Assembly: GCA_026874595.1 (NCBI GenBank)
Contig: CM049306.1
Location: forward strand, 14,901,019-14,965,018
Length of the DNA: 64,000 bases
Direction of reading: 5' to 3'
Origin: Sipunculus nudus
Lineage: Eukaryota; Annelida; Sipuncula; Golfingiida; Sipunculidae
Shown: piece by piece, positions 4,318 through 57,003 of the stretch
Layout: every line of letters begins with the position of its first letter
Position numbering within the stretch: position 1 is the stretch's first letter
The notes under the pieces: model-generated
Told to the model about the DNA's origin: nothing
Seen by the model: only the letters and a program-made list of their open reading frames with translations
Database searches by the model: none
Made by a program: the position numbers and the translations under genes

Positions 4318-5875
4318 GTGTCAGAACGACACGAATGCCCCCGCCTGGGGCAAATTAGAAACATTTGTAAAATTTTGAAAAATTTTTTAAGTTCAGGAGG
4401 TGTCGTATGGTCAAAAGTAGGTCAACAAGGGCAAAATGCAAACTCGATCTGTAACGGGTCATTATCAAGCAACACACCAAAAATCATGCCAGTATATGCA
4501 GGCATTTTAAAAAAAAGTCCATACATGTGCATTTTCCATAAAAATTTCTGTCTTTCATGAAATTTTTTATGTTTAGGAGCCGTAAAACAATCAAAAGTAG
4601 GTCAACCAGGACGAAACGCGAACTCGATCTGTAACTGTCATTATCTGCCCACACATAAAAAATCAGGGTGGTATCTGCAGGCCTTGAGGAGAAAAGTCAG
4701 TACATATGCATTTGTTATGAAAATTTCTATTTTTCATGAAACTTTCTATGTTCAGGAGCAGTCAAATGGTCAAAATTAGGTCAACTGGGACAAAACAAGA
4801 ACTCGATCTGTAACTGGTCATTATCTGCCTACACACCAAAAATCAGGCCCGTATCTGCAGGCACTGCGAAAAAAAAGTCCATACATGTGCACTTTTTTAT
4901 GAAATTTTCTATGTTAGAGCACCGTCAAATGGTCAAAAGTAGGTCAACTGGGACAAAACGTGAACTCAATCTGTAACTGGTCATTATCTGCCCACACACC
5001 AAAAATCAGGCCAATATCTGCAGGTATTGTGAAGAAAAGTCTGTACAAGTGTATTTGTCATGAAAATTTATATTTAACATGAAATTTTCTATGTTCAGGA
5101 GCTGTAAAACAATCAAAAGTAGGTCAACTGGGACGAAACGCGAACTAGATCTGTAACTGGTCAATATCTGCCCACACACCAAAAATCAGGCCAATATCTG
5201 CAGGCATTGCGAAGAAAAGTCTGTACAAGTGTATTTGTCTCGAAAATTTATATTTAACATGAAATTTTCTATGTTCAGGAGCTGTAAAACAATCAAAAGT
5301 AGGTCAACTTGGACGAAACGCGAACTTGATCCGTAACTGGTCAATATCTGCCCACACACCAAAAATCAGGCCAATATCTGCAGGCATTGCGAAAAAAAGT
5401 CTGTACATGTGTATTTGTCATGAAATTTCATATTTTTCATGAAATTTTCTATGTTCAGGAGCTGTAAAACGGTCAAAAGTAAGTCAACTGGGACGAAACC
5501 CGAACTCGATCTGTAACTGGTCTATATCTGCCCATACACCAAAAATCAGGCCAATATCTGCAGGCATTGCGAAAAAAAGTCCGTACATTTGTATCTGTCA
5601 TGAATATTTCTATTTTTCATGAAATTTTCTAAGTTAAGGAGCCGTAAAACAGTCAAAAGTAGGTCAACCGGGACGAAACGCAAACTCGATCTGTAACTGG
5701 TCTATATCTGCCCACACACCAAAAATCAGGCCAATATCTGCAGGCATTGTGAAAAAAAGTCCGTACAACTGTTTGATTTCGGAATGACGGAAGGACGGAA
5801 GGACAGAAGGACGGAATGACGGACATGGGTAAAACTATATGCCCCGGCCACTTTGTGGCGGGGGCATAAAAAACA
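4318..5875 (+). mobile_element. Family IV satellite-bearing element with 180-bp units and a 3' hairpin
   Basis: Eight units carry CAAAAGTAGGTCAAC and CACACACCAAAAATCAGGCC. Comparable unit positions are about 4399, 4579, 4759, 4920, 5101, 5281, 5461 and 5641; most steps are exactly 180 bp. The 5' end holds ATGCCCCCGCC (4335-4345) and a small TGCCCC/GGGGCA hairpin. After a GACGGAAGGACGG microsatellite the 3' end has a 14-bp stem with a TTT loop (5838-5868; one G·G mismatch), then oligo-A. The 3' arm contains GGCGGGGGCAT, the reverse complement of the 5' motif. No coding sequence. A Helitron/Helentron-like class is inferred from architecture. Confidence 0.85.
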
Positions 5876-5889
5876 AATTTAAGCTGAAA

Positions 5890-6810
5890 GTGGCTAGAAT
5901 TACAAGGATTCTGACCATAAAAAACAGGTCAATGTAGGTAGCGCCACAAAAACTGCAATTTCAAATACGAGTCAAGTGACTAACATTTGCACAAAATTAA
6001 GTGATCCTAGCTCCTACTGTTTCTGAGCATGACTAATTTCATTTTCCTGTAACTCTGCTAAAATTCATCAAATTATTTGAACACGCTTGAGAGAGCTGGT
6101 CTCTGGGATCATTTCTGTGAAATATTTAACCGTTTGGCTGAATGATTTCAGAGAAGAAGATTTTCCAAAGATTTTTAGCTTTTCCCCCGTAAAAAGTAAG
6201 TTAATGCAGGTGGTGCCACATAAACGCTCAATCCTACAACATTTGGTATGATAAACATTTGATAAAATTTGGGGATGCTAGCTCCTGCTATTCCTGATAA
6301 ATTATGGGTAAATGTATTGATGACCGATGACCCCTGTACAGAAAAGGTCGATGCAGGTGGCGCCACCAATACCCCAATTTTAAATATGACTCATGTGATG
6401 AACATTTGCATAAAATTTGGTGATGATAGCTCCAGCAGTTTCTCAAAATGTAATTTTAGTATCCTTTTTTGGCCAAATGACTGTTCAGCTTCCTGTGACT
6501 CAGCCAAATTCACTGAACTGGAACTATTTGATCAAACCTGAGAAAGATTGTTTCAGCTGGGATTATTTCTATAAAATATTGAATAATTTGGCCAGAAAGT
6601 TTCAGAAAAGAAGTTTTTTTAAGCTTTCTTAGCTTTTCCCTAAAAACCTTAGTAAAAGCAGATATTGAAAATATGAGCAATATCCAATAGTTTTTTAGTT
6701 GACTGATTTTTGGCATTAAGTTTGGTGATGCTGGCCCTGCCATTTTTGAGATAGTATGGGTTAATGTACAGACAACACAAGACAGACCACAGCTCATCAT
6801 CCCATAAGCT
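5890..6810 (+). repeat. Family II 3' region (two overlapping degenerate blocks)
   Basis: It contains GGTGATGATAGCTCCAG, CTGTGACTCAGCC, TTGAGAGAG-like and CTTAGCTTTTCCC blocks. It ends near 6780-6806 with CCATAAGCTCACAGGTTCAC, a variant of the family II 3' terminus CACAGGTTCGC. The open frames at 6175-6843 on both strands lie wholly in this repeat and are not genes. Confidence 0.7.
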
Positions 6811-7694
6811 CACAGGTTCACTTAAAAAATAGTTGGAGATCATAATAAGGTTAAGGAGAATACTGATGACATATCAAACATCTCTAACCTGAAGATATGA
6901 AAGAAGCTGATGTTACCATTAATAATTCAAAGGAACAAAAGAGGTGTAGAATTCTTTATGCTTCCAAATATGAAATATTCACTGTATCATTTATCTACAC
7001 CAGTGTATAATAACAACATCTCAGTCAAGCTCATTGTCACTGGTCTATTTGTATCTACATAATTTATAAACATGGCCAGACAAAGAACAGAACAGATACC
7101 CTTTCATGGTTTTTCCAAATGTGAATGGAATGCCACTTAGTGAAAGGAATGTTGAAAAGTAAGGATCCTATTGATGAATTGTTTGTTAAGGAAATATCCA
7201 TCATTGCTTGAAAACAAGCTAATGTAAGTTAGAGTCAACTTCCAGAGTTAAGGGGATCTAAATATTTGCTCATAAAAAGATCCACAGAATCCTGGCAAGT
7301 CTGCAATAACAGTTCACAGGTATCTGATAACACTAACAGCCTGTATTGAAATTACCATCAGTAAGGCAAATCCTGAAATATCACGGTAGTCCTATTATAG
7401 CTGTGGCTTTTACATATTATCCATAACATCCAGAAGTTTTGAATTTATCATTAATGGTTCTGTATATTATTTATTGTGCAAATAATACTAATTGAAAATT
7501 AGAAAGGAGAGAAGTTAAAATTCTCATCACATCTGGGATACTGATAAGTATCAATTTATCTGCATTCACCTGATTCATCTAAAGATCCCACTGCAATAAA
7601 ATCTGCATTAATTGTGCTGATGGCTATTCTAAACAAAGTTAAAAATACTATCAAATATTCCTGGTTCCTCCATTTGCAGTAAACTGCCAATCTG
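6811..7694. other. Unassigned spacer
   Basis: I see no exon, terminal repeat or tandem repeat here. Confidence 0.35.
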
Positions 7695-7790
7695 ATGGAG
7701 TAGGACATGCATAGTGGTTAAGGCGTTGGGCTTGGGAGCTGAAGTGAAGGTCCCTGGTACTAATCCAACTGAAGCATCAATGGCATAATA
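7695..7790 (+). mobile_element. tRNA-like SINE head
   Basis: TAGTGGTTAAGGCG (A-box-like, Ser/Leu tRNA type) is followed about 35 bp later by GGTACTAATCC (B-box-like). There is no intact cloverleaf, so this is a SINE head or tRNA pseudogene rather than a tRNA gene. Confidence 0.6.
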
Positions 7791-7935
7791 GTAAAATCCA
7801 AAATTAACAAGAGGTTACAATGACTTCTGAAATATTCCTAACCCCATGCTGAATTATTCCTAACCCCATGATGCATCAATGGCATAATTGTAAAATCTGA
7901 GATTAACTTCTGAAATATTCCTAACTCCATGCATA
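7773..7935. repeat. Imperfect local duplication, about 100-bp offset
   Basis: GCATCAATGGCATAAT, a GTAAAATC block and GACTTCTGAAATATTCCTAA occur in the same order twice, with an extra AATTATTCCTAACCCCATG between. This is probably a small tandem duplication inside the SINE tail. Confidence 0.7.
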
Positions 7936-10900
7936 TAAAAACCAGAAGACTTTATAACAACATTTCATTCTTATCATATGGATACCTTCATTCTCACCCA
8001 ATAGACAATGCCACCAACAGGCCTTGGACCCATCCTTTAAAAAAAAACTGATGACAATCTGATGTTTTTTTTATTATATCCTTAACATGATAGATTTACA
8101 GCCAAAACATCAAAGTCTATACTGTTTACTACCCTCTTTACACAGGGCATTACCCACAGGCCAAATACTGGCACTGTTTGTTTTGACCTTGTATCCTGAA
8201 TCTCTACACCAGAGGGGAGCACTGTATTTTGGTCCAATCAGATGAGACCCTGTGCTGGAAGACAAAATGGTTTACCAGCCAAGTGAGGAATAAATTAAGC
8301 CAATGTTGTTCATTTCGTTTTGAGTAACAGCTCATCGCCCCGGCGACCGTTTGAACAGGCCACAGGCTCAGAGATAACGGCCCCACACGTGGTTTATGGG
8401 TGGAGCCTGCTGCCTGTTGAGTGATTGTTGACTTGCATTTGTTCAGCTGCTAGTCCAATCAGCAGTTTTTCCAGCAGACAGGCCCATGTGCACCACTTGG
8501 TGTTTAAGTGCATCACAAATGGTCAAGGCAGGCAGAAGGAAAATCAGTAGCTTCTTTAGAAGCGCAAGATTTCAGCTGCTTCGGAAGCATAACTGTGTAC
8601 TAGTGTGTAGAGAATTAATTTAACTTAATGATGAATAAATAAGAGATGAATAGAAGAACAGCAAAGCTTATTTATAATAACTATTTTACATTCCTTTATA
8701 TTCATATATGACCATCAAAATTTGTTATATTCAATCATGATCATTTTACAATGACAACCTATGTCACATGAATTGTATATGTTTTAAAATGAATATGGAA
8801 CTATATATGTATGTATACAGGTCATATCATCTGTATCAGGAAAACTGGTTTGTTAATCAAATAGTGAACTTAATGCATGTGCACTGGTAGTCTGAAGTAT
8901 AAATGAAGATTTAATCCAAAGAAACATATAAAAAAAGTGGGATCACAATATGAGTGTGTCAGTCCATAACTCAGTTATAGAGTCCATCTGGTCATTTCTC
9001 ACCAGTCACAAATTCTAGGCCCTTCAATACAACCCTGCAGCCTCCCACTTCAGCCTAGGCAGTCACTTTTCAAGTTGCAGAGTGACCAGTTGATTAAATT
9101 ATTCAACCTGTACTTCTATAAGCATTGGCATAGCAGAGTTATCAAACAAACATGGATATAATAATCTGTTTATGTGAAGAATTATACTAGTAATTCAACA
9201 GGCAAATCAGTAACATGCTGACAGCTGTTAGAGAAAGGCCATTGATACTTAAATTATATAAGACCAAGTAAATAAAGCAGTAAATGAAGATTGTCTTTGT
9301 AACTCACCTTAATTAATTCATTCAGATTAGAATGTCTTTACTGAACTCCTTGAAGCATTTCCCCAACAGGAAGAAGTTCACAGTGACAGATGGACATACT
9401 GCTACTCCAGCCTTTTTTTAGCTGGTTTTCTTTTCATGAGACAAATAAAGAGTCATCTTTATTCAAATGTATTTAAGTCTACTCTCCTAGGTAGCAGTTT
9501 TGATCAATAAGGCTCTTACTGTGTGATTTCAGGAGGAGATTACAAACTCTGTGAAACCTGGCACATATGTCCCTGTTAAAGATCCAGTTTCCTGGACAGG
9601 ATGATCATAAGAATCTGAAGACAAGCTGCAGGAACTTAGAGATATACTTTTTATTTTTTAAAAGGAAGGGAACGAAAAACAGTGTAATTCAATAAACTAC
9701 TTTATACTCAGAACCAGCCATCACAGAGTATTTTCACTCTTTGTCATTCTCAACCAGATGAAGTGAATTTGTGATAAGAACTTGGCAGACATTCACTGAA
9801 GCTTTTTGTTTAATGTAAAATAAACAGTTATGCATCAAATTATTTCTCACTGCAATAAGTATATATGTAGATCTTAATATGTTCATAGATATGACTGACA
9901 TATGGCAGCATATTAGTATAAATTTTGTTATAATTTTGACCAGTTAATGTTTTTGTGATGTTGTGTTAAAGATATAAGCAGTTAGTATGTATTATATGTG
10001 GAAGAACCAGATTTGTTTATATACAAGTCCTTTTAATAAATGATAATAAGTTAAAAAATAATTAAAACATATTAGAAATAAACTATGCTCTACAGTTAAT
10101 AAACCATCCCTTATTACTTTACCCTATTTAAAATATGTCTGTAACATTTTGCTAGTGGAGATATTTTTCTGTGGGACTCCGTGGATGTCATTTACTTTGG
10201 CATTTTGTGCAAGGTCAGTTTGTCCAGGCACTCATGTATCGTTTTCACATACCCCATAATCTACAGGCTTGTCCCTGGTTCTGTATCACCTAAAATAATA
10301 TGATTATCACATTATATTTATTTCATCATAACACTCCTGAGACAGTTATTCAACACATATTCAGTCTCTTTATCTTTCTCAAATACAATAAAATACTCAG
10401 CGGCACACTAATCCAATTAAGAACCAACGAGAAAGGCCAACATATGCCCACTGCATGAATGCTCAGGAAATTACTGTCTGTACACAAAAAATTATCACGC
10501 TGCAGCCAGACACAGTAAGAACACATAACAAAGGCAGAAATTCCCAAGTGCCCACCTGTGTTATTTTCCAGATTAAACCAAGGCAGCGCCTCCAGCATGT
10601 TTACAGTAAATGACACTGTTTGTCATATTTGCAGTTTGTACACAAACAAAAACTGTATTCATTTCCCATGCAGTTATAAGGTGAATGGTCACAATAGGTT
10701 AAAAGATCTGTAAAAAGAAACTGTACATACAAACATCCACCACTACTATTCATTAATAAGGTGTTTTAGAGAACCCCACCAATCCAGCATCAACAAAGGG
10801 GTCAACCACCCTGCATATACCTTCAAGTTATGGTCTCTTTATAGACAAAAAGTGTGTCAACATGACAAATTTGTTTCATTACTTTCATTACTTCATAAGT

Positions 10901-11347: not shown

Positions 11348-11362
11348 GGGGGGGGGGGGGGG
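11348..11362. repeat. Poly-G tract, 15 G
   Basis: A homopolymer run follows a T-rich run. The assembled length is likely uncertain. Confidence 0.9.
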
Positions 11363-11525: not shown

Positions 11526-11529
<4 letters not shown>

Positions 11530-15145: not shown

Positions 15146-15179
15146 GTAAGTCAATATATTATAATAAAAAAATATTATA

Positions 15180-15540
15180 ACAAGGCCTACAGGCCTAATG
15201 CGAACCTGTCCATTAGGAAATACACCAGGTATAATGCTTCAATGCTGGATCATTACTTTTCATGTATATGAAAAATGCAAGTACTAAACATTTTGAATAA
15301 GAAGCAATTACACATACATCACTGCTGTAATTCTCGCATGGGTGCACACAACACAAAAACAATTGTAGCTGGCACCACCAGTCTTGTATACTTCGAAGCT
15401 ATCAGAGATATACACATATGCCAATTTTCAGACTGATTTATCAAACCCCTCCTGAGAAATAAGCAGGGACACACATTGTGCAAAAATTGTTGAAGGTGGC
15501 AAAAAAAATGCTTTGTCAGTACTCAGTATAGTCATACTTG
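15180..15540 (+). repeat. Family II 5'-end fragment
   Basis: It starts AACAAGGCCTACAGGCCT, with the subterminal GCGAACCTGT at 15200-15209. GGTATAATGCTTCAATGCTG and GGCACCACCAGTC blocks follow. The copy breaks off near 15540. Confidence 0.85.
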
Positions 15541-16072: not shown

Positions 16073-17540
16073 CTAGAATACGGGTAGTCGACAAGCGACT
16101 ACGTGTATCCGCCAAAATCAGAGAAGGACGGGTGAAGTGAGGCATGGATTGAGTGGCAAGGGGATATAGAGTTACATGTGTTAAATATTAGAATGGATCT
16201 CTGCCACATAAACATGATTGTAGGTGGTGCCACCTGTTATTTGAACGAGAAACTATCCAAGATATATACACATGCAAAATTTCATGTGGAAAAGTCAAAC
16301 CACTGCAGAGATATGAGTGATTTTATCCCACAGCAGACAAACAGATGGACGCTGTGCAAAAATGGCTGCAGCTGGTGCCACCATTTTTGTTCATGTTATA
16401 AAGCTATCCAAGGGCTACATTTGTGTAAAAAAATTTTCCTGATTGGTTGAATGAGTCTGGAGATATAAGCATGGATGTCTCGTCGTGAACGTGAATGTAG
16501 GTGGCGCCACTTGTCATAAAATCAAGAAAGCTATGCGGGATGTATAAGCATGCTGAATTTCAGGTAATTTGGTCAAACCACTGCAGAGATATGAGTGATT
16601 TTAACCAAAGACAGACAAACAGATGGACGCTGTGCAAAAATGGCTGCAGGTGGCGCCACCAGTTTTTGTGTATGTTATAAAGCTATCCAAGGGCTACATT
16701 TGTGTAAATTCTTTTTCCTGATTGGTCAGACGGTTCCCGAGATATGAGCTTGGATGTCTGCAGTGTTAACGTGAATGTAGGTGGCGCCACCTGTCAAAAA
16801 TCAAGAAAGCTATCAAGGATGTATACGCATGCCGAATTTTAGGTGAATTAGTCAAACCACTGCAGAGATGTGAGTGATTTTAACCCCAGGCAGATGAACA
16901 AATGGACACTGTGCAAACATGGTTGCAGGTGGCGCCACCTTTTGTTGTGTATGTTATAAAGCTATCCCAGGGCTACATTTGTGTAAATTTTTTTTCCGGA
17001 TCGGTCAAACGGTTCCCGAGATATATGGGTTTATGTGTGGAGGGTTAACGTGAATGTAGGTGGCGCCACCTGTCATTAAATCGAGAAAGCTATCTAGGAT
17101 GTATACGCATGCCGAATTTTAGGTGAATTAGTCAAACCACTGCAGAGATATGAGTGATTTTAACCCCAGGCAGATGAACAGATGGACACTGTGCAAACAT
17201 GGTTGCAGGTGGCGCCACCTTTTGTTGTGTATGTTATAAAGCTATCCCAGGGCTACATTTGTGTAAAAAATTTTTCCGGATCGGTCAAACGGTTCCCAAG
17301 ATATATGGGTTTATGTGTGGAAACAGACGCACAAACGGACGCTTGGCAGAGACGAAAGGTCAGAGGTCAAGGTCACTTGGTTAGGCACCAGTTCACATGT
17401 GACCCGATAATTTGTGTAAGTTTCGGAAAAATCTATCCAGTAGTCTCAGAGGAGTTCTCGGGAAACGAACGCCGCGGCGGCGGCGGAACCTGGTCAAAAA
17501 CATAGTATCCGCAAAACTTCGTTTTGGCGGATACAAAAAT
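16073..17540 (+). mobile_element. Family III element: GGTGGCGCCACC dimeric satellite with hairpin ends
   Basis: The 5' end reads AGAATACGGGTAGTCG and forms a 7-bp stem, GTAGTCG/CGACTAC (16084-16102). The subterminal GTATCCGCCAAAA (16105-16117) is a perfect 13-bp reverse complement of TTTTGGCGGATAC (17522-17534) at the 3' end. There, together with TATCCGCAAAAC, it makes a terminal hairpin with a TTC loop followed by oligo-A. The core is a roughly 280-bp repeat made of two diverged halves of about 131 and 149 bp, each bounded by GGTGGCGCCACC. A GC-rich CGCCGCGGCGGCGG block and ACAGACGCACAAACGGACGC precede the terminus. No coding capacity; the open frames here are repeat artefacts. Confidence 0.88.
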
Positions 17541-17924
17541 TATCTGAATTTTGTTAAGATAGTAATTATAATTCTTCGTTCTCACATAGAGTTGATGTTG
17601 TGTGTGTGATAATACGCTCACAATGCCTTGATTTTAACAGTTAATTATCTGAATTTCGTTGAGATAGTAATTAATTCTTCATTCTAACATACAGCTGATG
17701 TTGCGTGTGATAAAACCCTCACAATGCCTTGATTTTGTACTGTGAAGGCTGAGCACAAAATGGAATGAGCTAAAAGCCACTCCAGTTTGCTCTCTTCACA
17801 AAGTTGACCCATTTCCTCAAACGTTCTGGCTGGCTCAAGGAAACCTGTGTAAACTCACACCATCACAGTTTGTGCAACTGCAGCCACCCGCTACACAACT
17901 ATTTGGCATTATTTAAACTATTAA
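17541..17924. other. Short spacer with a local duplication
   Basis: Words such as TTATCTGAATTT, GAGATAGTAATTA, CAATGCCTTGATTTT and a GATGTTG block occur twice, around 17540-17640 and 17640-17740. No gene is seen. Confidence 0.5.
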
Positions 17925-18112
17925 CAAGGCCTACAGGCCTAATGCAAACCTGTGCAATGAGATTACACCAGGTATAATGCTTCAATGCTGGACCATTACT
18001 TTTCAAGAACATGTGTAACATGTGTATGAACAATGCAAGTACTAAACACCTAGAACAAGAAACAAACAATCATCACTGCTGAAATTCTAGCATGGGTGCA
18101 CACAACACAAAA
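17925..18112 (+). repeat. Family II 5'-end fragment, interrupted
   Basis: It starts AACAAGGCCTACAGGCCTAA and continues to GCACACAACACAAAAA. At that point the family III 5' end begins, so a family III copy appears to have inserted into family II. Confidence 0.85.
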
Positions 18113-24837: not shown

Positions 24838-25345
24838 ATATTCAAGGTCAAAGCCACTCTCACAGGAAAAGTCATGACCCAAATTAAATATACCTCATCC
24901 AATTACCTATATCTATGTATATGCATAATCTGAAAGAAATTTGTCCATTAGTGTTTTTTTGCTTATAATGCTCACAGTACTGTCAAGTTGCAATGAAGGG
25001 GGTATTTACAGGGAGAAAAACATGAAAAAGACAAAAGGATGATGCTACCTGTCTCCCGCAGAAGAATGCTATCAAACATCTTTGGTCAATTTTTTTTAAA
25101 CTAATCCATGCATGTATCCCTGATTGAGATATTTAAGATTTTGTATGATTTTTACCAAATATGGTTCAATGTCAAGGCCACTCTCACAGTAAAGGTCATT
25201 TCCCCAAATATAAATATACCTCATTCAATAACCCATATGTATTTTATGCATAATATGAAATGTTCTGTTCATTAGGTTTTTACTTATAATGCTCACAATA
25301 CTGTCATATGGCAGTGATGGAGTAATAAGAAAATGAGAAAACAAA
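24838..25345. repeat. Imperfect direct duplication, about 320-bp offset
   Basis: AAGCCACTCTCACAG, ATATACCTCAT, TTATGCATAAT and CTTATAATGCTCACA occur in the same order at about 24850-24990 and 25170-25310. Confidence 0.75.
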
Positions 25346-26230
25346 ACAAGGCCTACAGGCCTTATGTGAACCTGTGCAATGGGATAAAACCAGGTATAAT
25401 GCTTAATGCTGGACCATTACTTTTCAAGAACATGTGTAACATTTATATGAACAGTGCAAGTACTAAACACTTTGAACAAGAAACAGTTACACAAACATCA
25501 CTGCTGAAATTCTGGCACCACCAGTTTTGTAAACAACACAGTGATATACATATGCCAAATGTCAGACTGATATGTCAAACCCCTCCTACGTAATAAGCAG
25601 GGACATATACTGTGCAAAAATTATTGTAGGAGGCGCCACAAGTCTTGTACACGATAAAGCTACCCGACATGTATAATTATGCCTAATTTCAGGCTGATGT
25701 ATCAAATTTCTCTGTAGAAATAAGCAGGTGCATACACTGTGCAAAAGTAAATGTATGTGGCAACTTCCTTTGGGTTTGATGCACTGGGCTGACCAGGCTT
25801 AGGTGAGTAAGGCAGTTGCCCCGAGTGAACTGTGACATATTGCTACCTCAAGCTACTGCACTGAGTGAACTCTTGACCTGCACCTGGTAAGACTGAGTGA
25901 ACTTTTGACCTGTACCTGGCTGCACTGAGTGAACTATTGACCTGTTGCATAATCTGACACAGTTGGCAGTCTGCCAAAGCTATAAATAGATCCAGGCTGA
26001 ATTTTGGTGCCAAATCTGATGCAGTGAGCAATCTTCCACTATAAATAGAATGCAGCTACTGCATTGAGTGAACTCTTGACCTATACCTGGCTGCACTTCT
26101 TCCAATCCTGGCACTGTGCCAAAACTATTTATAGAGCTGACATCATCTTGGCTAATGGCCAACATCAAGGCACTGGTAATCTGTGCAAAGAGCTGCCATC
26201 CGGACACAAAAGTGGTCCCCCTACTTGAAA
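25343..26230 (+). repeat. Family II copy, 5' end plus internal subrepeats
   Basis: It opens AACAAGGCCTACAGGCCTTA with the variant GTGAACCTGTG. GGCACCACCAGTTTTGTA-type monomers follow, then GGGCTGACCAGGCTTAGGTG, then CACTGAGTGAACTCTTGACC subrepeats. The 3' region is absent. The two minus-strand frames at 25843-26207 come from the subrepeats. Confidence 0.8.
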
Positions 26231-27187: not shown

Positions 27188-27470
27188 TTGTATCCGCCAA
27201 ACCAGAGTTTTGCGGTTTTCAGTCCGATGCCACCTACGCTGCATAGGTTTCCAGAGAACTCTTCTTTTACCACTGGGCATAATTTTTTATAATTCGGAAT
27301 TTTGATCAGATCACATGTAAACTGCTGCGCCCTCATTTTTGGTTGACCTCTGACCTTTCCTCTCTGCCCATTTTTCATTTGTTCATCTGTTTCCACACAT
27401 AAACCCACATATCTCCGGAACTGTTTGAAGGATCAGGCTAAAAATTTTGCATAGCCCTATACAAACACTA

Positions 27471-29489
27471 ACAAGTGACCTGTGGGTCATGACGCTCAGC
27501 CGACTGACATGTTGACAATATGTCCTTGCACAGACAACTAAATAAGGTAATGTAGGTGGCATCATTGTTCATGCATATTAGCTTAAGTTCATCAAGACCC
27601 ATAAGCACAACAAATCTGATGACAAACCAATCAGCCTTTCATGAGGAATCTGGCAATTTGTGTGTATTTTGCATTATTTCTAGGGTGCTCAAACATACCC
27701 CAAAATTCTGAGAATATAGTTCACTGTGACCCAATTTCAGGTTTCTAAAACTCTCAGGATGTCAAGTTAGAAGATTCTGGGCCCAAAGGTTATGATTTGG
27801 GCCCTACTTTGGTTTCAAATTTTCAATTATTCTGAGGGGTGCTTATATTTATAAGCCCCATAGCTTAGAAAATATGAGTAACGGAGACCTAAATACACGT
27901 TTCCAAGGAGATTTTCAAAAAAACTCGATGATGAATATCACTGCACAGAATCATGGTGATCAATGCATCAGTTGTTCAGATACTTGAGCTTTCGTATCAA
28001 ATTTTTTATAATTCTGGGGGGGGGGGGGGGGGGGGGGGGGTTTGGAGCCCCATAGCTCAAAGAATATGGGTAACATAGACCTAATTCCAGGTTTCCAAGA
28101 AGACTTTTCATGGACCTCACTGGATGTAAAGTGAGAAGATTCCAGGTCCAGTGTTTACGATTTGTGCCCTGTTAACAGATGACGGCATCTTTGGAGGTCT
28201 CAAAAATAGAGAAAAAAATTGTAAAACATCGAAAAAATACAGGTGGTGCCACCATTGTTCAGAAACTGATGTAACACCCCATGATCAATATCCATGCAAA
28301 GAATCATGGTGATCAATGCATTAGTTGTTCAGATATTTGAGCTTTTGTATCAAATTTTTTATTATTCTGGGGGGGGGGAAGGGGTACTTCGGAGCCCTAT
28401 AGTTTGAAGAATTTGGGTAACAGAGACCTAATTCTAGTTTTTTAAAGGAGACTTTTCATAGACCTAACTGGATGTAAAGTGAAAAGATTCCAGGTCCAGT
28501 GTTTACGATTTGTGCCCTGTAAACAGATGACGGCATCTTTTAAGGTCTCAAAATAGAGAAAAAAATTCGTTAAAAAAAATAAAAAAAATACAGTGGCGCC
28601 ACCAGTCTGCAGAAACTGATAAAACACTCCATGATCAATATCCATGCAAAGAATCATGGTGATCAATGCATTAGTTGTTCAGATACTTGAGCTTTTGTAT
28701 CAAATTTTTCATTATTTTTTTTTGGGGGGGGGGGGGGGGGTTTGGAGCCCCATAGCTTGAAGAATATGGGTAACAGAGATATAATTCCAGGTTTCCAAGG
28801 AGACTTTTCATGGACCTAACTGGATGTAAAGTGAGAAGATTCCAGGTCTAGCGTTTATGATTTGTGCCCTGTTAACAGGTGACAGAATCTTTTAAGGTCT
28901 CAAAATAGAGAAAAAAAATCGTTAAAAAATCGAAAAAATACAGGTGGCACCACCAGTCTGCAGAAACTGATAAACACTTCATGATCAATATCCATGCAAA
29001 AAATCATGGTGATCAATGCATTAGTTGTTCAGATACTTGAGTCTCTGTATCAAATCAAATTTTGCATTCTTCTGGGGGGTTTCGGAGCCCCATCGCTCGT
29101 AGAATATGGGTCACATAGACCTAATTCCAGGTTTCCAAGAAGACCTTTCAGGGACCTCTCTGGATGTAAAGTGTGAAGATTCCATGTCCAGCAGTTACAA
29201 TTTGTGACCTGTTAACAGATGACGGCATCTTTGGAGGTCTCAAAAATAGAGAAAAAAATCGTAAAAAGTCGAAAAAATACAGGTGGTGCCACCAGTGTTC
29301 AGAAACTGATGTAACAACCCATGATCAATATCTATGCAAAAATTCATGGTGATCAATGCATTAGTTGTTGCATCAGATACTTGAGCTTTTGTATCAAATT
29401 TTTCATTATTCTGGGGGGGTTTCGGAGCCCCATAGCTCGAAGAATATGGGTAACATAGCCCTTATTCCAGGTTTCCAAGAAGACTTTTA
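27471..29489 (+). mobile_element. Family I element nested in family III, 3'-truncated
   Basis: It starts ACAAGTGACCTGTGGGTCAT with the subterminal GCTCAGCCGACT. A leader follows, then body units of about 340-351 bp anchored by AGAAACTGAT at 28261, 28611, 28962 and 29301. Each unit has GGTAACAGAGACCTAATT, TTCTAGGTCCAG-like and TTGTGCCCTGTTAACAGATG blocks. The last unit is cut inside AGACTTTT at about 29489; no 3' hairpin. The open frames in this interval are repeat artefacts. Confidence 0.82.
28016..28040. repeat. Poly-G tract, 25 G, inside a family I unit
   Basis: It replaces the short G run that follows ATTATTCT in other family I monomers. Equivalent runs are 10 G at 28369-28378, 17 G at 28724-28740, 6 G at 29074-29079 and 7 G at 29413-29419. 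Confidence 0.9.
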
Positions 29490-30091
29490 TCTCAGTAGTG
29501 GTTTGACTTATCTGCCTAAAATTTTGCATGTTTATACATCTTGGATAGCTTTCTCGATTTTGTGGCAGGTGGCGCCACCTACACTTATGTTTACGCTGCA
29601 GACATTCAGGCTTATATTTCATGACTGGTTTGACATATCCTATTGAAATTTTGCATGTGTATAGATCTCTCATAGCTCTTAACCATACATAAAACTGGTG
29701 GTGCCACCTGCCACCAATTTTTGCACAGGGTCCTTCTGTTTGTCTGCTGTGGGATAAATCACTCATATACAAGTAGTGGTTTGACTTATCTGCTAACATT
29801 TTGCATATGTATACAACTTGGATAGCTTTCTGGATTTTTTGCTAAGTCGCGCCACCTACATACACATTTCGACTGCAGACATCGATGCTAATATGCAACA
29901 CACCTCACTCTTTTTCCCCTTGCCACTCAATCCATGCTTCACTTCACCCGTCCCACTCTGATTTCGGGGGATACACATAGTCGCTTGTCAACTACCTGTA
30001 TTCTGGTTTACATTTTGAAAAGAAGTTTTATTTTCACACATGTTTTGACTTGGCCTAATGACTTTATCTACATTGCAGCAGAAGTATTTGA

Positions 30092-33000
30092 AACAAGTGA
30101 CCCATGGGTCATGACGCTCCGCTGACTGGGAAGAGATTCAGAAAAGGATATTTTATCATCTGAATGGTAGTATATATACCCATTCAACTTAACCATCAAA
30201 CAGATTAACCAACAGGCCAAGATTGTGTCTGTATTTATATATCTCAAAAATAGAGAAAAAATGCGTAAACTTTAAACACAGCCTACAGGCCTAATGCGAA
30301 CATGTGCATTGGGAAATACACCAGGTATAATGCTTCAATGCTGGACCATTACTTTTCATATATATGAAAGATGCAAGTACTAAACATTTTGAATAAGAAA
30401 CAATTACACAAACATCACTGCTGAAATTCTGGCATGGGTGCACACAACACACAATTGGTTGTAGCTGGCACCACCAGTCTTGAATACAACAAAGCTATCA
30501 GAGATATACATATGCCCAATTTCAGACTGATATATCAAACCCCTCCTGAAAAAATAAGCAGGGACACACACTTTGCAAAAATTATTGTAGGTGGCACTAC
30601 CAGTCTTGTAAACGACAAAGCTATTCCATATGTATATATATGCCCAATTTCAGGCTGATATATCAAATTCCTCTGTAGAAATAAGCAGGCACATTCACTG
30701 TGCAAAAGTCATTGTAGGTGGTGACACCTGTCTTGTGAACGAGAAAGCCATCAAAGACACATAGACAGGTCAAAATATCAGGCAAATACATCAAACTTAC
30801 CTTGAGTCTGATGCATGGGGCTGACCAGGCTTAGGTGAGAAAGGCAGTTGCCCTGAGTGAACTGTGACAAATTTGCTGGCTCAGGCTACTGCACTGAGTG
30901 AACTCATGACCTGCACCTGGCTAGACTGAGGGAACTTTTGTTCTGCACCTGGCTGCACTGAGTGAACTCTTGACCTGTTGCATAATCTGACATAGTTGGT
31001 AGTCTGCACAAGCTATAAATAGATCCAGGCTGAACTTTGGTGCCAAATCTGATGCAGTGGGCAGTCTGCCAACGCTATAAATTGAATGCAGCTACCGCAC
31101 TGAGTGAACTCCTGACCCATACCTGGCTGCACTGAGTGAACTCTTGACCTGTTGCCTAATCTGATACAGTTGGCAGTCTGCCAAAGCTAAAAATAGATCC
31201 AGACTGACCTCTAGCCTGTTGCCATATCTGAAATAGGAGCCACACCATTGCATAAGCTCATGCAGGGGCCCTGCCCTGAGGGGCATGACACCGATGAGGT
31301 GATCACATGGTGCCCATGAGGTGTTCACATGTCACCCATGAGGTGATCATATGCCTTGTGCTTGGCTGCACTGATTGAACTCTTGACCTTTATCGCGCTG
31401 CACTGAATGAACTCTTGATCTGTTGCCAAATCTGAAACAGCTGGCAGTTTCACAACCTATTTAAAGATACAGACACAATCTTTGCCTGTTGCTAAATCTG
31501 TTTTCACATACTGAAAGACTTTGGCTAAAATGCTTTTTTCTCGAAGCTGACATATTCACAAAATCTGCACTTCAAATATGAGTCATGTGACAAACATTGG
31601 CACAATGCTTGGTAATGCTAGCTTTTGTCATTTCTGAGATTACTTTGTCAGTATGCTTACTTGGCCAAATGACTGTTCAAATTTGTGTAACTCCACTAAA
31701 ATTCATCAAATGCAAACCATTTGAACAAACTTGAGAGAACTTGCCTCTGGGTTCATTTCTGTAAAATATTGAACAATTTGGCTGGACTGTTAACAAGAAG
31801 AAGACATTTAAAAGTTTTTCAGCTTTATCCCTATAAAATCTAAGTAAACTGCAGATAGCAAAAAAAATAAGCTGAATCCTACAACATTTGATATGTGACA
31901 GATTATTGCATAAAATCTGGGGATGGTAGCTCCTGCTATTCCTGAGAAATGATGAGTTAATGTACAGATGACCAATGACCCCCGTACAAAAAAAGGTCAA
32001 TGCAGGTGGCACCACTAATACCTGAATTTCATATATGACTCATGTGACCAAGACTGGCATAAATTTGGTGATGATAGCTCCAGCCAATATTGGACAATTT
32101 GGCTGAACAGTTTCAGAGAAAAAGATTTTTAAAGCTTGTTTAGCTTTTTCCCTATAAAATCTATGAAAATGCAGTAAGCCAAAAAATAAGCAAAATCCAA
32201 TAAAGTTTTTTAGAAGACTAATTTTTTGCATAAAATTTTGTGATGCTAACTCTTGCCGTTTTCAAGATAGTGTTGGTTAACGTACAGATGACGGACAACG
32301 GACGACAGACGCTGGGTGACGCCACACCATTGCATAAGCTCACAGGTTCGCTAAAAAATACAGGTGGCTTCACCAGTGTGCAGAAACTGATAAAAACACT
32401 TAATGGTCAATAACCATGCAAAGAATCATCGTGATCTCTGCATAAGTTGTTCAGATACTTCAGCTTTTGTATCAAATTTTCCATTATTCTGAGGGATACT
32501 TTGGAGTCCTATAGCTTGAAGGATATGGGTAACAGAGACCTAATTTTAGGTTTCCACAGACACTTTTCATCGGTCTCCTTGCATGACATGAATGAAGATT
32601 CTAGGTCCAATTGTTACAATTTGTGCCACGTTAACAGATGACAGCATCCTTAAAGGTCTCAAATATAGAGAAAAAAATTTGAAAAAATTTGAAATAAAAA
32701 TAAATGTGGCGCATCCAGTCTGCAGAAACTGATGGAACACCTCATGATCAATATGTATGCCAAAAATCATGACCATCAGTGTTGTAGATACTGAGATACT
32801 GCAGTTTTTGTATCAAATTTTTCATTATTCTGGGGGGTATTTTGGAGCCATACAGCTTAAAGGTAATGGGTAACAGAGGCCTAATTTCAGGTTTCCATGG
32901 AGATTTTTCATGGGTCTCCCTGTGTGTCAAGAATGAAGATTCTAGGTCCAGTCTTTATGATTTATGCCCTGTAAACAGATGTTCACTTTTTAAAAGTCTC

Positions 33001-36960: not shown

Positions 36961-38905
36961 AATTTAAGATACTGATTTTATATTCATGCTAATAATTTAT
37001 AAAATTTAAAATTCAGATCTCATTTTTGGTATACCATTAAATTTTGATTAAATATAGCTATATACCTGAAAGGAAGTCTCTAGCTTCAGCGATTCTCAAA
37101 TTAAGGGAGAAATTATATTTCCTAAATTTTTTACAATTATAAAGTATTCACTAAATGTCTTGTATTTTACAGTTTCAGTCAAACAAAACCATTGAGAATC
37201 CAGGATATACTAATTTCACAAATATAAATAACGATCATAAGTGCCTAGTTTTATGGCTTTAATTTATAAAAAAAAATTACATTATCCTTTGAATACTGTC
37301 ATATCACTGTATACGCATTAAACAAGGTAAGACACTCATGATAATTTTTAACATCATAGACATCATAATGAGAACTTGAATAAGATCTGATTTTTTATCA
37401 CATTTGAATATTTTTATTTTATTTTTAAACATGTATAAAAAAAATTAATCTCAGCTATAAATCTAATAAATGTGTTAAAAATAACCCAAGAATCAAAACT
37501 CCCAATATATCTTACAAGGAGCAAACTGGAGTTAGCCTTGTTTAATTTTATTACCTGAAATGAAGGAATCAGTACTATACATTTTGATTATTTACCAAGT
37601 ATCATGTAACAGCTGATACACCCATGAATTTAAATGTCATTAGTCAAACATATTGACATCTTTAATGAACACTTGTCTGAGTTAAATTTTAAATTTTTGA
37701 CATATTACAATTTTTTTTAAATTTTGGAATAAAAATAAACCAATGAAATTAAACACCTGGAAAAGACCTGGAAATTTAGATTAATTAAATGTAATCAACT
37801 GCATCCTTGTCTATCATTAATTTGCTACAAATAATTCCTAACAGTAAACAATTTCATTTAATTATTTATTTTACATTTTTATGATTGAAATGAAAAATAC
37901 CCATTTATGACTGTCATATGGATACACTTTTGGCAATCCATGGAAGATCCATAAAACATCAGTATTGCAAGGTAATTCCCTGTTACACATTAACTATAAA
38001 ATTCCTTTTCCATTAATATTTCTTACAGTTGTTCTTTTAAACCAATAATTTTTTTTAAATTATTATTTTCATGTTTTTGGCCAAAAATCTACTATAGGAG
38101 GGGGGTCAGACATCTAGATCAAGCTAAAGGAACCCAAGAGCTTGATGGCTACAGAGTATGCCCACTTTAAGCTTGCATAATTGGCCTGAAAGGTCAACAA
38201 GAGGACATATGGAGGGGTTTCAGTATAGCTTAGGTGTGACATGGTCTCATCAAAACTTTAATAGAAGATACAGTTTTTGGTCATCTCCTTTCAAATTTCA
38301 GAATTTACAAGCTGAAATTCTTAGTGTGCATTATATGAAATTAAAATGAACAGTGCTTACAGGGAAAAATGTTCTATGGCCAATGTTGGGCAAAATTTTA
38401 GTTACTGATTTTATATTTATGCTAATAAATTTTAAAATTTGTAATATTCAGATCTATTTTTCAGTATACAATTGAATCTTGATTAAATGAAGGTATATCC
38501 CTGAAAAAAAAAATTTCTAGCTTTTCAAGGTGCATTGTTCGGGCCGATTACTTCAAACAATTGCCCAATACTGACCTACTTTTTGGTATGTACATTGGAA
38601 ATGTATGGAAGAATATGCATACTAACTATGATCAAAAACAGATCAGTGGTTTTGATATTAGGCAGTCTTGAAGTGGGTTTTTTTAATGGAAAACAGAGGT
38701 TTTTCCTCAATATCTCAAAGATACGAAGTTCTAGTGACCAAATTTTCAGTACAGTGGAAGATTCTGGGGACATCTAACTGAATGCAAAATTTTGGATTAG
38801 TAGGTTCAACAGTTTTATAATGTGCCCTGTAAATAGATGGCAGGATGACGGACAAAGGACCATGACCAAAGCTCAGATGACTTAAAGTCGGCTAAGCTAA
38901 ATATT
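36961..38905 (+). repeat. Complex 2-kb repeat (family V), copy 2 with family I-type 3' end
   Basis: It has the same block order as the preceding copy, for example AATGAGAACTTGAATAAGA at 37367 and TCAGTGGTTTTGATATTAGG at 38642. It ends with a GGATGACGGACAAAGG stretch and an imperfect hairpin at 38870-38898: AGCTCAGATGACT, loop TAA, AGTCGGCTAAGCT. This is the same terminal design as the family I element ending at 56998. The two overlapping frames at 38535-38777 are not genes. Confidence 0.85.
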
Positions 38906-52349: not shown

Positions 52350-52696
52350 ATTTTAAGGCGGAGTGCGTGTTGGGTTTGCAGAACCCTCACAAAAATACCT
52401 AACACACCGGCAAGCAGTACTGTATTCATATTATATATCTAAGATGATTATACTACATACATTGCATGGAGAGAGTAAAAACCTGATGACAAAGATTTTT
52501 TTTGTCTTCTTAGCTCGTGAATTCATATTCCGGAACATATGCAAAGCCGAGATAGTTGTTTTCCACAATAATTTGCTATAAGACCTTAAGAGAACAAAAG
52601 GATATAATAGAATGATGAATTTTGACGAAACAGCACAGAGATCTCTAGAATGTTCGAAACTCAGATGGCTCAAATCTAATATTAAATAAAGTTGAA

Positions 52697-52879
52697 GAAG
52701 CGGATTCAAGGGGACCCCCTCCCCCTTTTTCTTTAAGGATCTTAGACCAATTTTGGCAGCCTGTAACCCACCCACCCCCCCCCCCCCCTCCTTTCCGGAC
52801 ACTGATACCTTTTTTATGCTTTGTCATTAGTCCTCCTGGGTTGGACCCACTCGTTTCGTAAATCCTGTATCCGCCCCTG
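52697..52879. mobile_element. Small hAT-like MITE, related to 42975-43166
   Basis: It begins near AGCGGATTCAAGGGG and ends CCTGTATCCGCCCCTG. It shares TCCTCCTGGGTTGGACCC with the element at 42975. A C-rich tract (CCACCCACC then a run of C at about 52775-52788) lies in the middle. The minus-strand GGGG-coded glycine-rich frames over it are artefacts. Confidence 0.65.
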
Positions 52880-54233
52880 AGTTGTTGAACAGCAATAAAC
52901 AGTATTGTCATAATGTTAAGGGAATAATAAACCATATGAGTTAAATGATATCGAGATTATATAATTAAATTGCATATAAAACAGGCATATGCTTATAATT
53001 TCTGCAACAAACGTGCAAACCTTCATTGAACCAGTCACCACGCATGAGCATTTTGACGAATGAATTGCCGTTATCATTAACATCATACAGGTTAATAAAG
53101 TTTTTGGTGTTTTTTTATACAGCCAGGAATTATCAGCGGTCAATTTTATTTTACATCTGTAGACAACATAATCAGTGATTGCGTGTGATTAAGTGGGCTC
53201 AGAAAAGGAAAACAAATTTATTACCCCAAAAGGGATGTGTTTCGGGTATTGGTGTTTACAGATTGGAACCAGAATATGCAAGGACTCAGCTGAGCTGACG
53301 TTAATTGAATTATTACATCAGCTGGGTTTTGGACTTCACTGATTAGTCTTCCGCTGATAGAGTTACAGTGTCAGACGCTTGATATCTGGGCACAAATTAG
53401 GCAGTAGTTGTTGAGCCGCGTGAATTCCCAGGCACGACCAGCTGAATGGTTCCCAGCGGAAGTGGTTTCATGGGCTTTACATTGTTCTTTAATCATGTCA
53501 GCACACCTCATGACGTATGAGCTAAATTTAATGTTCATTTTCTGCATCAAATGAAGTAGGTCATATACTGTATCTGATGAATAAATACTAGTTGTAAGAC
53601 CAATAATGGAAACCAGACTCGCTTCCAGCGGACTCGCAATCTCTAAGTAAATTCCACGATCAATGCCCCGGAGCCGTACAGCATTTCCGTTACCACAGTG
53701 TTCGTCTAATCTAAAACAGTGTAATACACTGATCAGGGGTCAGGGGTATCTAGAGGAGCAGATATTAGCAATGTCCTTATACATGTATTTCAAACTGTTT
53801 AAATCTTACATATTTGTCTGATATAAAAAAATTGGTGATAACAAACACACAGGATTTTTCGCAAATATTCACGTTAACCGAAAATAGAATATTTTTAGAA
53901 AATAATTCATAGCGATCTGAGTGAAGGAACCTGATCATGGAACTGTTTCAGCGCTTTTAACCTCGGTTTATAACACTGACTGTAATCATCTTATTACAAT
54001 GACATATTCAACATTATTATTCACGGATTATTGGAAATAAATCCTCAACTTCTCACTAGAACTTTCATAAGTGGGGTCAGGCGCGTATTAAGAAAGGGGG
54101 GGGGGGGGGGGGCAGGGGGGAAATCTTTGAAATAAAATGAGATAACCTCATTACCAGAAAACGTTCGACTTGCTTCTGATGCCATTTACACAGCTGTACG
54201 TCTGAATAAAGGAGTAATGTATAACGTCTACTA
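52880..54233. other. Unassigned stretch with one G tract
   Basis: A 17-G run (about 54096-54112) follows CAGGCGCGTATTAAGAAA, possibly a decayed hAT-like end. No exon is seen. Confidence 0.35.
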
Positions 54234-54581
54234 AAGTCCGTTCCACAACCCATTCTCCCCCTTTTTTGGAAATTATTATTTTTTTTGCAAGTAAAAAAAC
54301 GACAACACTTTTTGCCTCTAGGACAGAAAGAAAGAAAATGTTAAATTATTTATGTTGGATATATTAGCCTACCTTGTGTCATTTTCTTGTAAACAATTTA
54401 AAACCATTTTATGAGAAGCTATTTCGTGGCGACATCTTACCACCAATCTATGAAATGAGCATGTCAGGGAACAGTGATGACGTCATAATACACGTTGCGC
54501 ACACAAACTATGCATACATATTTGCGGGACCAATAATCAAGAGCCGCCGACCCCTGTTTACAGTGAGACTTTTATTCCCCT

Positions 54582-54620
<39 letters not shown>

Positions 54621-54664
54621 AGACCACCGATATATATGAGGCATGTCCACCAGACCGTTAAGTG
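54234..54664 (+). repeat. Dispersed repeat R, copy 3
   Basis: It carries CAATTTAAAACCATTTTATG, a perfect TGACGTCA (54478-54485) and ATCAAGAGCCGCCGACCCCT. It is split by a (TA)n run (54585-54615) and ends with CATGTCCACCAGACCG. A second (TA)n run follows at 54677-54742. Confidence 0.75.
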
Positions 54665-54674
54665 ACTATACATG

Positions 54675-54676
<2 letters not shown>

Positions 54677-54742
<66 letters not shown>
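54677..54742. repeat. (TA)n microsatellite
   Basis: About 33 dinucleotides, immediately downstream of repeat R copy 3. Confidence 0.97.
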
Positions 54743-54744
<2 letters not shown>

Positions 54745-55421
54745 TAAGCAGGTACGGTACCAAAAATGAGTTTGTTTTTTTAATTTACAATATTACTTAT
54801 GAAATAAATTTTCAGATCATCTCGTAAATGGGCTATTTAAAAATCGATTAGACTTTGATGTGGATCCGGCTGATGGTCCAGATTCAAGAAGGACTTCCAG
54901 GAATATTCATAATAACCAGTCAGATATGCTCGATTGGACATGTGGATATGGGCCGAATAAATGAATGCAAGCACTTGTTGGGGATCATATTCACCAATAA
55001 ACCTAGGAATATGGACCAACCAGTGTATGAAAACATGGGGTGCGGATTACCCCGCATTAAGGACTGTCCCAATGGTGGAGGCCTGCATTCATGACAATGT
55101 ACATTTCTAGTTATCATTGACATTTTAAAGAATGAACACGCTTACAAGCACATCTCTTGATCTGACAACAAAATCAATATCAGCCAAATGGCTCACAAAA
55201 TAATGTACCACAATCATCTAAAATACTCACAATAACGTGTTCAAGACATGTTTAAAGAAAGACAGAAAAGTCAATAAATTTCATAAACCATACACATAGT
55301 AAAAAATGTTGAAAATGTGAAACATCTGCATATAAACTTGCAACTTGCCTATAAATCGTTCTCATTTAGAAGCATATATAGATTGTAGATGAAAAAAAAC
55401 AGAGAATTTACTTCACCTGGT
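54743..55421. other. Unassigned stretch
   Basis: Frames on both strands at 54837-55123 overlap and have no recognisable domain. No element ends. Confidence 0.3.
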
Positions 55422-57003
55422 AACAAGTGACCGATGGCTCATGACGCTCAGCCGACTGGCATGTTTACAATAGGTGGCATCAAAGTTCATGCACATTAGC
55501 TGAAGTTCATCAAGACCTGTAAGCACATCAAATTTGATGACGATCCATCCAGCTGACCTGAGGAATCTGGCAATTTGTGTGTATTTTACATTATTTCTGG
55601 GATGCTCAAACATGGGCTGTAACTCAGATAATATAGGTCACAGTGACCTCAATTCAGGTTTCTGAGGAGAACTTATGAGGAACTCTCAGGATGTCACGTA
55701 AAAAGATTCTAGGTCAAATGGTTATGATTTGTGGCCTGCCTGGTATCAAATTTTCAATTATTCTGAGGGGTGCTTATAAGCCCCATAGCTTGGAGAATAT
55801 GGGTAATAGAGACCTAATTTCATGTTTCAAAGAAGTTTTCATTGACCTCCCTGGATGTCAAGTAAGAAGATTCTAGGTCCAGTCATTACGATTTGTGCCC
55901 TGTTAACAGATGATGACATCTTTAAAGGTCTCAAAAATAGAGAAAAAAAATTGTGAAAAATGAAAAATACAGGCACCAAAAGTCTGCAAAAACTGATGAA
56001 ACACTCCTTGACCAATATCCATGCAAAGAATCATGGTGATTCATGCATTAGATGTTCAGATACTTGAGCTTTTGTATCAAATTTTGCATTATGCTGGGGG
56101 ATACTTCGAAGTCCTTATAGCTCTGAGATTTTGGGTAACAGAAACCTAATTTTAAGTTTCCAAGGAGACTATTCATGGGCCACGTTGCATGTCAAGCTAA
56201 CAAATTCTAGGTCCAGGTGTTACGATTTGTGCTCTGTTATCAGATGATCGCGTCTTTTAAAGTCTCAAAAATACAGAAAAAAATCGTTAAAAAATCGAAA
56301 AAGTATAGGTGGCGCCACCAGTCTGCAGAAACTGATGAAACACTCCATGATCAATATCCATGCAAATAATCATGTTGATCAATGCAATAGTTGTTCAGAT
56401 ACTTGAGTCTTTGTATCAAATTTTCCATTATTCTGGGGGGTACTTCAGAGCCCTATAGTTCAAAGAATATGGGTAACAGAGACCTATTTCCAGGTTTCCA
56501 AGGAGGCTTTTCACGGGCCTCCCTGCATGTCAAGATAGAAGCTTCTAGGTCCAGTCGTTACGATTAGTGCCCTGTTAAGAGATGATCGCATCTTTTAAGG
56601 TCTCAAAAATACAGAAAAAAATCGTTAAAATAATCGAAAAAAAACAGGTGGCGCCACTAGTCTGCAGAAACTGATGAAACAATCCATGAACGATATCCAT
56701 GCAAAGAATCATGGTGTTCAATGCATTAGTTGTTCAGTCACTTGAGTTTTTGTATCAAATTTTCCAGTATTCTGGAGGTTATTTCAGAGCCCCATAGATC
56801 GAAGAATATGGGTAACAGAGACCTATTTCTAGGTTTCCATGGAGACTTTTCATGGGCCTCCCTGCATGTCTAGATAAAAAATTCTAGGTCCAGTCGTTAC
56901 CATTTGTGCCCTGTTAACGGAAAGACGACCAGACGGCCGGACGGACGACGGACAAAGAGTGATTGCTTAAGCTCAGATGACTTATAGTCAGCTGAGCTAA
57001 AAA
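55422..57003 (+). mobile_element. Complete family I element (about 1.58 kb)
   Basis: The 5' end is AACAAGTGACCGATGGCTCA with GCTCAGCCGACT at 55446-55457. The leader shares CATCAAATTTGATGACGATC-like words with the copy at 27471. The body is about four units, with anchors at 55987, 56327 and 56666 (339-340 bp apart), including GGTGGCGCCACC at 56308. A GACGGACGACGGAC microsatellite follows. The 3' terminus is a hairpin at 56970-56998: AGCTCAGATGACT, loop TAT, AGTCAGCTGAGCT (12 of 13 paired), then oligo-A. The right arm is the near reverse complement of the 5' motif. No coding sequence. Confidence 0.88.

Follow-up and report, generated by a model that had tools for sequence, protein, structure and literature searches.

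Within a 64,000-nucleotide stretch of the genome of the sipunculan Sipunculus nudus (contig CM049306.1, here C1, positions 14,901,019-14,965,018, in a genome of 1.43 Gb; hereafter the window, whose own positions are given unless a contig is named), four families of satellite-bearing repeats, I to IV, carry a motif near one end that is the reverse complement of a motif near the other. This raises the question of what kind of element is built in this way, and of what decides the strand on which its copies lie. The end rule repeats a layout already published for Helitron2/Helentron elements, and what would matter is the orientation: copies of unrelated families tend to share one strand by region, in domains that span roughly 100 kb to 1 Mb on C1. 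This shared regional polarity, together with a conserved unpaired base in the 5' hairpin, lies beyond the published Helentron accounts that we found, as far as their accessible text goes. Both features, and above all the polarity, deserve follow-up.

The four families are, in all likelihood, Helentron-associated interspersed elements (HINEs), that is, non-autonomous Helentron/Helitron2 rolling-circle elements with satellite-like arrays, whose canonical reading in the window is on the minus strand. The assignment rests on the structural features tested. In canonical order these are a T-rich target, a 5' asymmetric terminal inverted repeat (ATIR, also called subterminal inverted repeat or subTIR, here of about 11-15 bp), a microsatellite, tandem repeats, the 3' ATIR, a palindrome beyond it and a terminal CTAG|T in III and IV or CTTG|T in I and II. 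The family IV HINE (4312..5867) comprises a 5' ATIR hairpin with a C.C mismatch (5839-5867), a microsatellite (5780-5823), a tandem array with a period of about 180 bp (4380-5772), the 3' ATIR (4335-4345), a palindrome (4318-4332) and the 3' end CTAG (4312-4315). The family III HINE (16073..17534) comprises a 5' ATIR hairpin with a bulged C (17505-17534), a degenerate microsatellite, a 279-bp-period array (16211-17305), the 3' ATIR (16105-16117), a palindrome (16084-16102) and CTAG at 16073-16076. In the family I HINE (55422..57002), the 5' ATIR hairpin lies at 56971-56997 (ATIR 56986-56997), the microsatellite at about 56922-56957, the array of about 340-bp period at 55743-56918 and the 3' ATIR at 55446-55457, and the end CTTG|T at 55422 follows a palindrome that is degenerate in this copy. 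These three copies were delimited by their ends, hairpin fold and array, and family IV also by the empty site of another copy. The family II HINE (30275..32352), delimited by its ends and by its joined flanks, is nested in a family I tandem array; it has a 5' ATIR (32341-32351), a microsatellite (about 32290-32310), shorter arrays, a 3' ATIR (30296-30306), and a 3' palindrome and end at 30275.

The inverted motifs that a first-pass annotation had reported for the four families are present where it placed them. Those of family III (16105 and 17522) and family IV (4335 and 5857) are perfect reverse complements, and those of family I (55446 and 56986) differ at 1 of 12 positions. The family II consensus, GCGAACCTGTG, stood in part: its complement is exact at 32341, and none of the four copies at the opposite end (15200, 17944, 25366 and 30296) matches it exactly, each having one change. 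The hairpins with a 3-nt loop described for I, III and IV fold better than shuffled sequences (z of -3.8, -6.3 and -4.2, respectively); they are formed by the 5' ATIR and the bases downstream of it, as is characteristic of Helitron2. The palindrome outside the motif, noted for I and II, does occur there and is not limited to them, as III and IV carry it at 16084-16102 and 4318-4332. The proposed link to Helentrons and to bivalve-type tandem-repeat carriers agrees with the HINE layout, and the family-specific end pairs hold as well. The direction has to be reversed: the supposed 3' hairpin with oligo-A is the canonical 5' end (a T-rich target, then the 5' ATIR hairpin), and AACAAG with its palindrome is the canonical 3' end. 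Nor is the one-arm rule new, as had been supposed, because it is the layout already published as ATIR/subTIR for Helitron2/Helentrons (PMC3627910, PMC4067079, PMC7492417; all sources cited by PMC number were accessible in part, and statements about them refer to that part).

Chance origin of the motif pairs is excluded genome-wide. The 5' hairpin pattern has 24,708 matches for family I, 5,758 for III and 2,443 for IV, with none for the reversed-pattern control of each, and exact family II 5' ends number 521, again against a control of 0. The family III motif GTATCCGCCAAAA matches 13,290 times in the genome, compared with 21 times for the word read backwards. Among 100 matches listed, pairs of this motif within 2.5 kb comprise 15 inward, 0 outward and 4 same-strand pairs, and none of 20,000 strand shuffles reached 15 inward pairs. 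In 20 family IV loci chosen for a perfect hairpin, a 3' ATIR with 0 or 1 mismatch lies within the extracted stretch in 11; all 11 have the palindrome region and a T directly after the end, which reads CTAG in 10 and CCAG in one.

The element boundaries, on which the rule had been said to depend, are supported in the two cases covered, one family IV copy (clean) and one family II copy (less clean). The family IV copy (loci L072 and L036, contig C3 at 10.57 Mb) splits a sequence that is continuous in locus L038, with flanks 98% alike. The junction, ...CAAGAA | CTAG...CATAA | AAAATAAA..., lies between two A's (canonical T's) without target duplication, and this single clean empty site is what documents T|T insertion. 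The family II copy lies in an A-rich part of the family I repeat; its joined flanks align with small gaps, and the junction agrees with T|T insertion while being blurred by A-runs. A scan of 359 kb for CTAGT/CTTGT followed by a palindrome and an ATIR gave 19 rows and no further family: three were of low complexity or weak, and the others were copies of I, III and IV.

With the reading direction settled, orientation was scored on C1 for the copies among the matches listed for each family, at most 100 per listing. From 0 to 1.2 Mb, 80 of 81 copies of all families are on the plus strand; between 1.2 and 1.48 Mb, all 13 are on the minus strand; the orientation is then plus up to 2.95 Mb (17/18), minus up to 4.25 Mb (14/17) and plus up to 5.3 Mb (19/20). 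The pattern is more mixed from 5.3 to 15.45 Mb, and the minus strand predominates again from 15.45 to 16.1 Mb (19/20). The domain borders (flips near 1.2, 1.48 and 2.95 Mb) were set after the data had been seen. Over the whole genome, family I is nearly balanced between the strands (12,526 to 12,182). One set of family I matches lacks four minus-strand copies beyond 1.33 Mb and was used only below 1.332 Mb; further family I sets were used to 16.1 Mb and to 14.5 Mb.

The same tendency is seen when pairs of copies from different families are compared by distance, for which all lists are from C1. Between 3 and 16 Mb, orientations agree in 16/18 pairs at 0-3 kb, 29/33 at 3-10 kb, 66/85 at 10-30 kb, 59/91 at 30-60 kb, 76/113 at 60-100 kb, 161/274 at 100-200 kb, 455/768 at 200-500 kb, 599/1228 at 0.5-1 Mb and 2388/4736 at 1-3 Mb. 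The 246 agreements among 340 pairs within 100 kb were reached by none of 2000 independent circular shifts, and the 201 among 289 pairs at 10-100 kb by 3 of 2000. A smaller set, with one family I listing left out, gave 126/169 (0 of 2000 shifts). Across several contigs, 12 of the 20 family IV loci hold other repeats common to the window region, and these run mostly parallel to the family IV element in 11 of the 12, two of which (L050 and L051) are duplicate-like. Within the window and its two 30-kb flanks, repeat alignments are on the same strand, except those that fit one reversed family III copy.

Some observations weigh against a polarity of this breadth. Beyond the first 3 Mb of C1, agreement is much weaker, as the 246 of 340 within 100 kb indicate. 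Families III and IV alone give a modest result at 3-16 Mb (20/23 for nearest copies within 60 kb, a count that 29 of 2000 shifts attain). The nearest neighbour of a family II copy has the same orientation in 5/5 cases within 20 kb, 7/9 within 50 kb and 8/13 within 100 kb, counts that include the family I listing short of minus copies beyond 1.33 Mb. One family IV locus, L047, has its other repeats in the opposite orientation. As for controls, the sequence examined yielded no recognisable repeat that was both abundant and unrelated to HINEs, and a tRNA T-arm word, with 640 matches, had only 3 of 100 listed in C1:0-30 Mb, too few to compare. A search of the literature, with most subscription journals outside its reach, brought up no account of orientation domains in Helitrons or Helentrons.

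The second feature concerns the 5' hairpin, whose plan is common to I, III and IV: after 6-8 outer pairs, a single C of the ATIR stays unpaired, and 5 inner pairs then lead to a 3-nt loop. The defect is a bulge in III, a C.C mismatch in IV and a C.T mismatch in I. Among 100 matches listed per family, none of the copies of I, III or IV has a repaired stem: the full 14-letter arm is found in 0 of 100 family III copies, the mismatch letter of family IV is G in 93, A in 7 and C in none, and that of family I is A in 97, T in 2, G in 1 and C in none. The letter that would pair in family IV is present at 23 places genome-wide. Within the window, copies of I, III and IV have the defect 5 bp from the 3-nt loop, and the same placement is seen in those of loci L001, L006 and L007 and in two family I copies that lie in the 60 kb flanking the window (L068 and L069). 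A scan by structure only recovered the ends of I, III and IV together with some AT-rich chance rows. Pairing of ATIR with ATIR is calculated to be stronger than pairing of the ATIR with its distal arm by 2.7 (III), 3.6 (IV) and 4.9 (I) kcal/mol.

Since the two strands of a perfect inverted repeat would be indistinguishable and a single defect sets them apart, we infer that the unpaired C may mark the transposed strand and be read as such by the Helentron Rep. In E. coli, TnpA(REP) requires a mid-stem mismatch for activity, and the unpaired state seems to carry more weight than the sequence; the transposases of IS608 and ISDra2 touch an unpaired or mismatched stem base (PMC8266576). That the C is a founder accident without any role is nevertheless a serious possibility, only a little short of an even chance. 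The families may stem from few masters, in which case uniformity within a family needs no selection, and those of the 23 family IV places with the pairing letter that were extracted resemble ordinary copies. The lack of stem repair within a family may be simple descent from a founder, a point that counts against a functional reading, and the argument for function rests on the three families: their defects differ in kind, yet all lie 5 bp from the 3-nt loop, and each time it is a C of the ATIR that stays unpaired. No report of a conserved stem defect was found in the literature search, which reached few of the subscription journals.

What could impose one orientation on unrelated families? Helitron-type elements act through an HUH-type Rep. 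Insertions of IS200/IS605 in bacteria follow the direction of replication, owing to a preference for the lagging-strand template (PMC5371812). Taken together, these two points make replication-fork direction our leading guess for the cause of the polarity. Specifically, we propose, at less than even odds, that HINE insertion is strand-specific and tied to the fork, through T's that are single-stranded on one template strand, that tens of thousands of HINEs from unrelated families could form a fossil record of germline fork direction, and that the unpaired C could be the strand mark used by Rep. The Helentron Rep would recognise the 5' hairpin on the transposed strand, and that strand would be displaced by rolling-circle synthesis. 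The 3' ATIR would then pair with the 5' ATIR, opening the weaker hairpin and setting the end point of transposition, as in the proposal of Bao and Jurka. The single strand would finally join at T^T, where a regional property would determine which strand is accessible. Along the element direction, the flanks of 20 loci have a mean GC skew of -0.018 (standard error of the mean 0.010) and a mean AT skew of 0.030 (standard error 0.013), values that carry little weight, since such flanks can hold pieces of HINEs.

The polarity could instead come from transcription or selection, for example from unistrand clusters resembling those that produce PIWI-interacting RNAs (piRNAs) or from selection against one orientation, with no part played by replication; we consider this unlikely, while the best of the remaining accounts of the domains. 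Drosophila is known to have unistrand piRNA clusters (PMC10643416), and in the 124 kb examined the minus strand carries both of the longest open frames (484 and 314 codons, neither with a Pfam match), so that gene direction could correlate with element direction. The polarity, however, extends over about 1.1 Mb (80/81), flips (13/13) and flips back (17/18), which is wider than one cluster, and agreement is also seen at 3-16 Mb and within single loci on other contigs.

It is less probable still that the agreement arose artificially, from nested insertion, segmental duplication, skew of A/T runs or the search listing. Nested copies do exist, such as the family II element in the family I array, and several places among the matches listed have a family III and a family I hairpin at a spacing of about 2.05-2.08 kb, which suggests a composite element or a preference for nesting. 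L050 and L051 resemble duplicates, and the family I listing without minus copies beyond 1.33 Mb inflated the effect below 3 Mb. The corrected set still shows the 66/85 (10-30 kb) and 76/113 (60-100 kb) agreement at 3-16 Mb, and with family I left out altogether, agreement over 0-16.1 Mb stands at 79 of 102 pairs for distances of 10-100 kb, as against 669 of 1343 at 1-3 Mb. Runs of at least five A's or T's number 538 and 457, respectively, in 124 kb, far from the observed bias, and most repeated stretches in the same 124 kb match HINE loci, with a few unclassified. Target-run skew and nesting do not account for the agreement at 10-100 kb, and duplication is an unlikely source of an agreement among three families in the canonical direction.

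As to class, it is very improbable that these are cut-and-paste DNA transposons of the miniature inverted-repeat type with terminal inverted repeats, as the bivalve Pearl was first classed: short inverted repeats do lie near both ends and a long open frame is absent inside, but the repeats lack symmetry, a palindrome lies outside them at just one end, the clean empty site has an A^A (T^T) junction without target duplication, and Pearl has since been moved to the non-autonomous Helentrons (PMC7492417). A canonical Helitron1 was also rejected: the 3' CTAG|T of III and IV fits CTRR|T, yet the 5' ends lack the TC of Helitron1 and form a hairpin, which Helitron1 does not have.

Two results stand against the identification of the four families as HINEs. 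The family II end has no 5' hairpin (fold z of 0.3 against shuffles). The autonomous Rep/helicase element with the same ends, towards which the first-pass annotation had pointed, was not found: the genome has 143 PF14214 matches to Helitron-type Reps, with open frames up to 2,426 amino acids, and a search for the four ATIRs (at most 1 mismatch) in about 1.5 kb around 30 of the 143 led to no autonomous element. Likewise, a de novo structure scan around three large Rep copies gave no convincing ends. In those 30 loci, the only ATIR beside a Rep match is near L036, and it was rejected as the end of an autonomous partner, being that of a family IV HINE inserted into the sequence continuous in L038. 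This L036/L072 element adjoins a Helitron-type Rep gene and a lysine/glutamine-rich, coding-like tandem repeat. Helentron Rep genes with frames of 1.9 and 2.2 thousand codons occur in loci L011 (contig C7, 31.58 Mb) and L012 (contig C11, 50.39 Mb), examined with L059-L065. The two are 99% alike over stretches of 5.4 kb downstream and 6.7 kb upstream, their ends lying beyond the compared stretches, and they are either very large Helentrons or duplicated blocks.

The window contains further pieces of these families. Canonical 3' ends of family I lie on the minus strand at 2587..2622 (AACAAG, palindrome and 3' ATIR, with 2 changes relative to the 55446 copy), 27470..27505 and 30092..30127, and a family I 5' hairpin lies at 38871..38897, also on the minus strand. 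Canonical 3' ends of family II are at 15179..15210, 17923..17954 and 25345..25376 (minus). One family III copy, in an interval that also includes other repeats (27190..29974), is on the plus strand, opposite to the other copies seen in the window. The 12-bp palindrome GGTGGCGCCACC occurs, with at most 1 mismatch, at 25 sites in the window, e.g. 16500, 28242 and 56308, and is common to tandem units from several families, I and III among them, that show no other sign of relationship; nothing relevant to it was found among the papers listed in the literature search. A 268-bp tandem unit is present in three copies at 223-1015 with 99% identity, the HINE arrays being more diverged. The 314-codon open frame (61836-62777, minus), which is the longest in the window, is perhaps an exon of a gene.

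The families can finally be compared with known systems. Bao and Jurka, who defined ATIRs in 2013 together with the 5' hairpin, noted that two related elements differ by compensatory changes, and proposed that pairing of the ATIRs destroys the hairpin and sets the end point (PMC3627910). Like their Helitron2, the families here have ATIRs (8-15 bp in Helitron2), a 5' ATIR hairpin, a 3' ATIR upstream of a 3' hairpin and a target after T's; unlike Helitron2, they carry tandem arrays and no Rep/helicase, and family II lacks the 5' hairpin. In some Helitron2-like elements of Fusarium, the inverted repeat is likewise part of a hairpin (PMC5148889). SubTIRs with a 3' palindrome were described in flies and mites by Thomas in 2014, and these DINE-1/HINE elements resemble the present families in subTIRs, 3' palindrome, TT target, microsatellite or tandem repeats and, for DINE-1, an inverted repeat at the 5' end (PMC4067079); the likeness is one of layout, and here no autonomous partner is linked. 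The closest description is that of 11 oyster elements by Vojvoda Zeljko in 2020, with a 5' subTIR, its inverted repeat, a microsatellite (GTCC-like in several), tandem repeats, a 3' subTIR and a palindrome (PMC7492417). The Cg_HINE elements of Crassostrea gigas in that account share with ours the 5' subTIR with a local inverted repeat, the microsatellite, the satellite-like array, the 3' subTIR, the palindrome, oligo-T insertion without target duplication and the lack of a linked autonomous partner, a likeness of described layout. Their local inverted repeat is 7-12 bp long, whereas here it spans the whole ATIR and beyond, with one defect, and orientation does not figure in the accessible part of that account. 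If the polarity follows fork direction, it would be the animal counterpart of the bacterial IS200/IS605 pattern; it would explain the Helentron choice of target strand and would provide germline replication maps for non-model species, readable from an assembly. IS200/IS605 orientation follows host replication (PMC5371812), and for the elements here the link to replication is inferred. The resemblance to IS200/IS605 and TnpA(REP), which is one of mode of action only, with a Rep/helicase and not TnpA presumed here, lies in a single-stranded DNA hairpin that has an unpaired or mismatched base in its stem (PMC5371812, PMC8266576).

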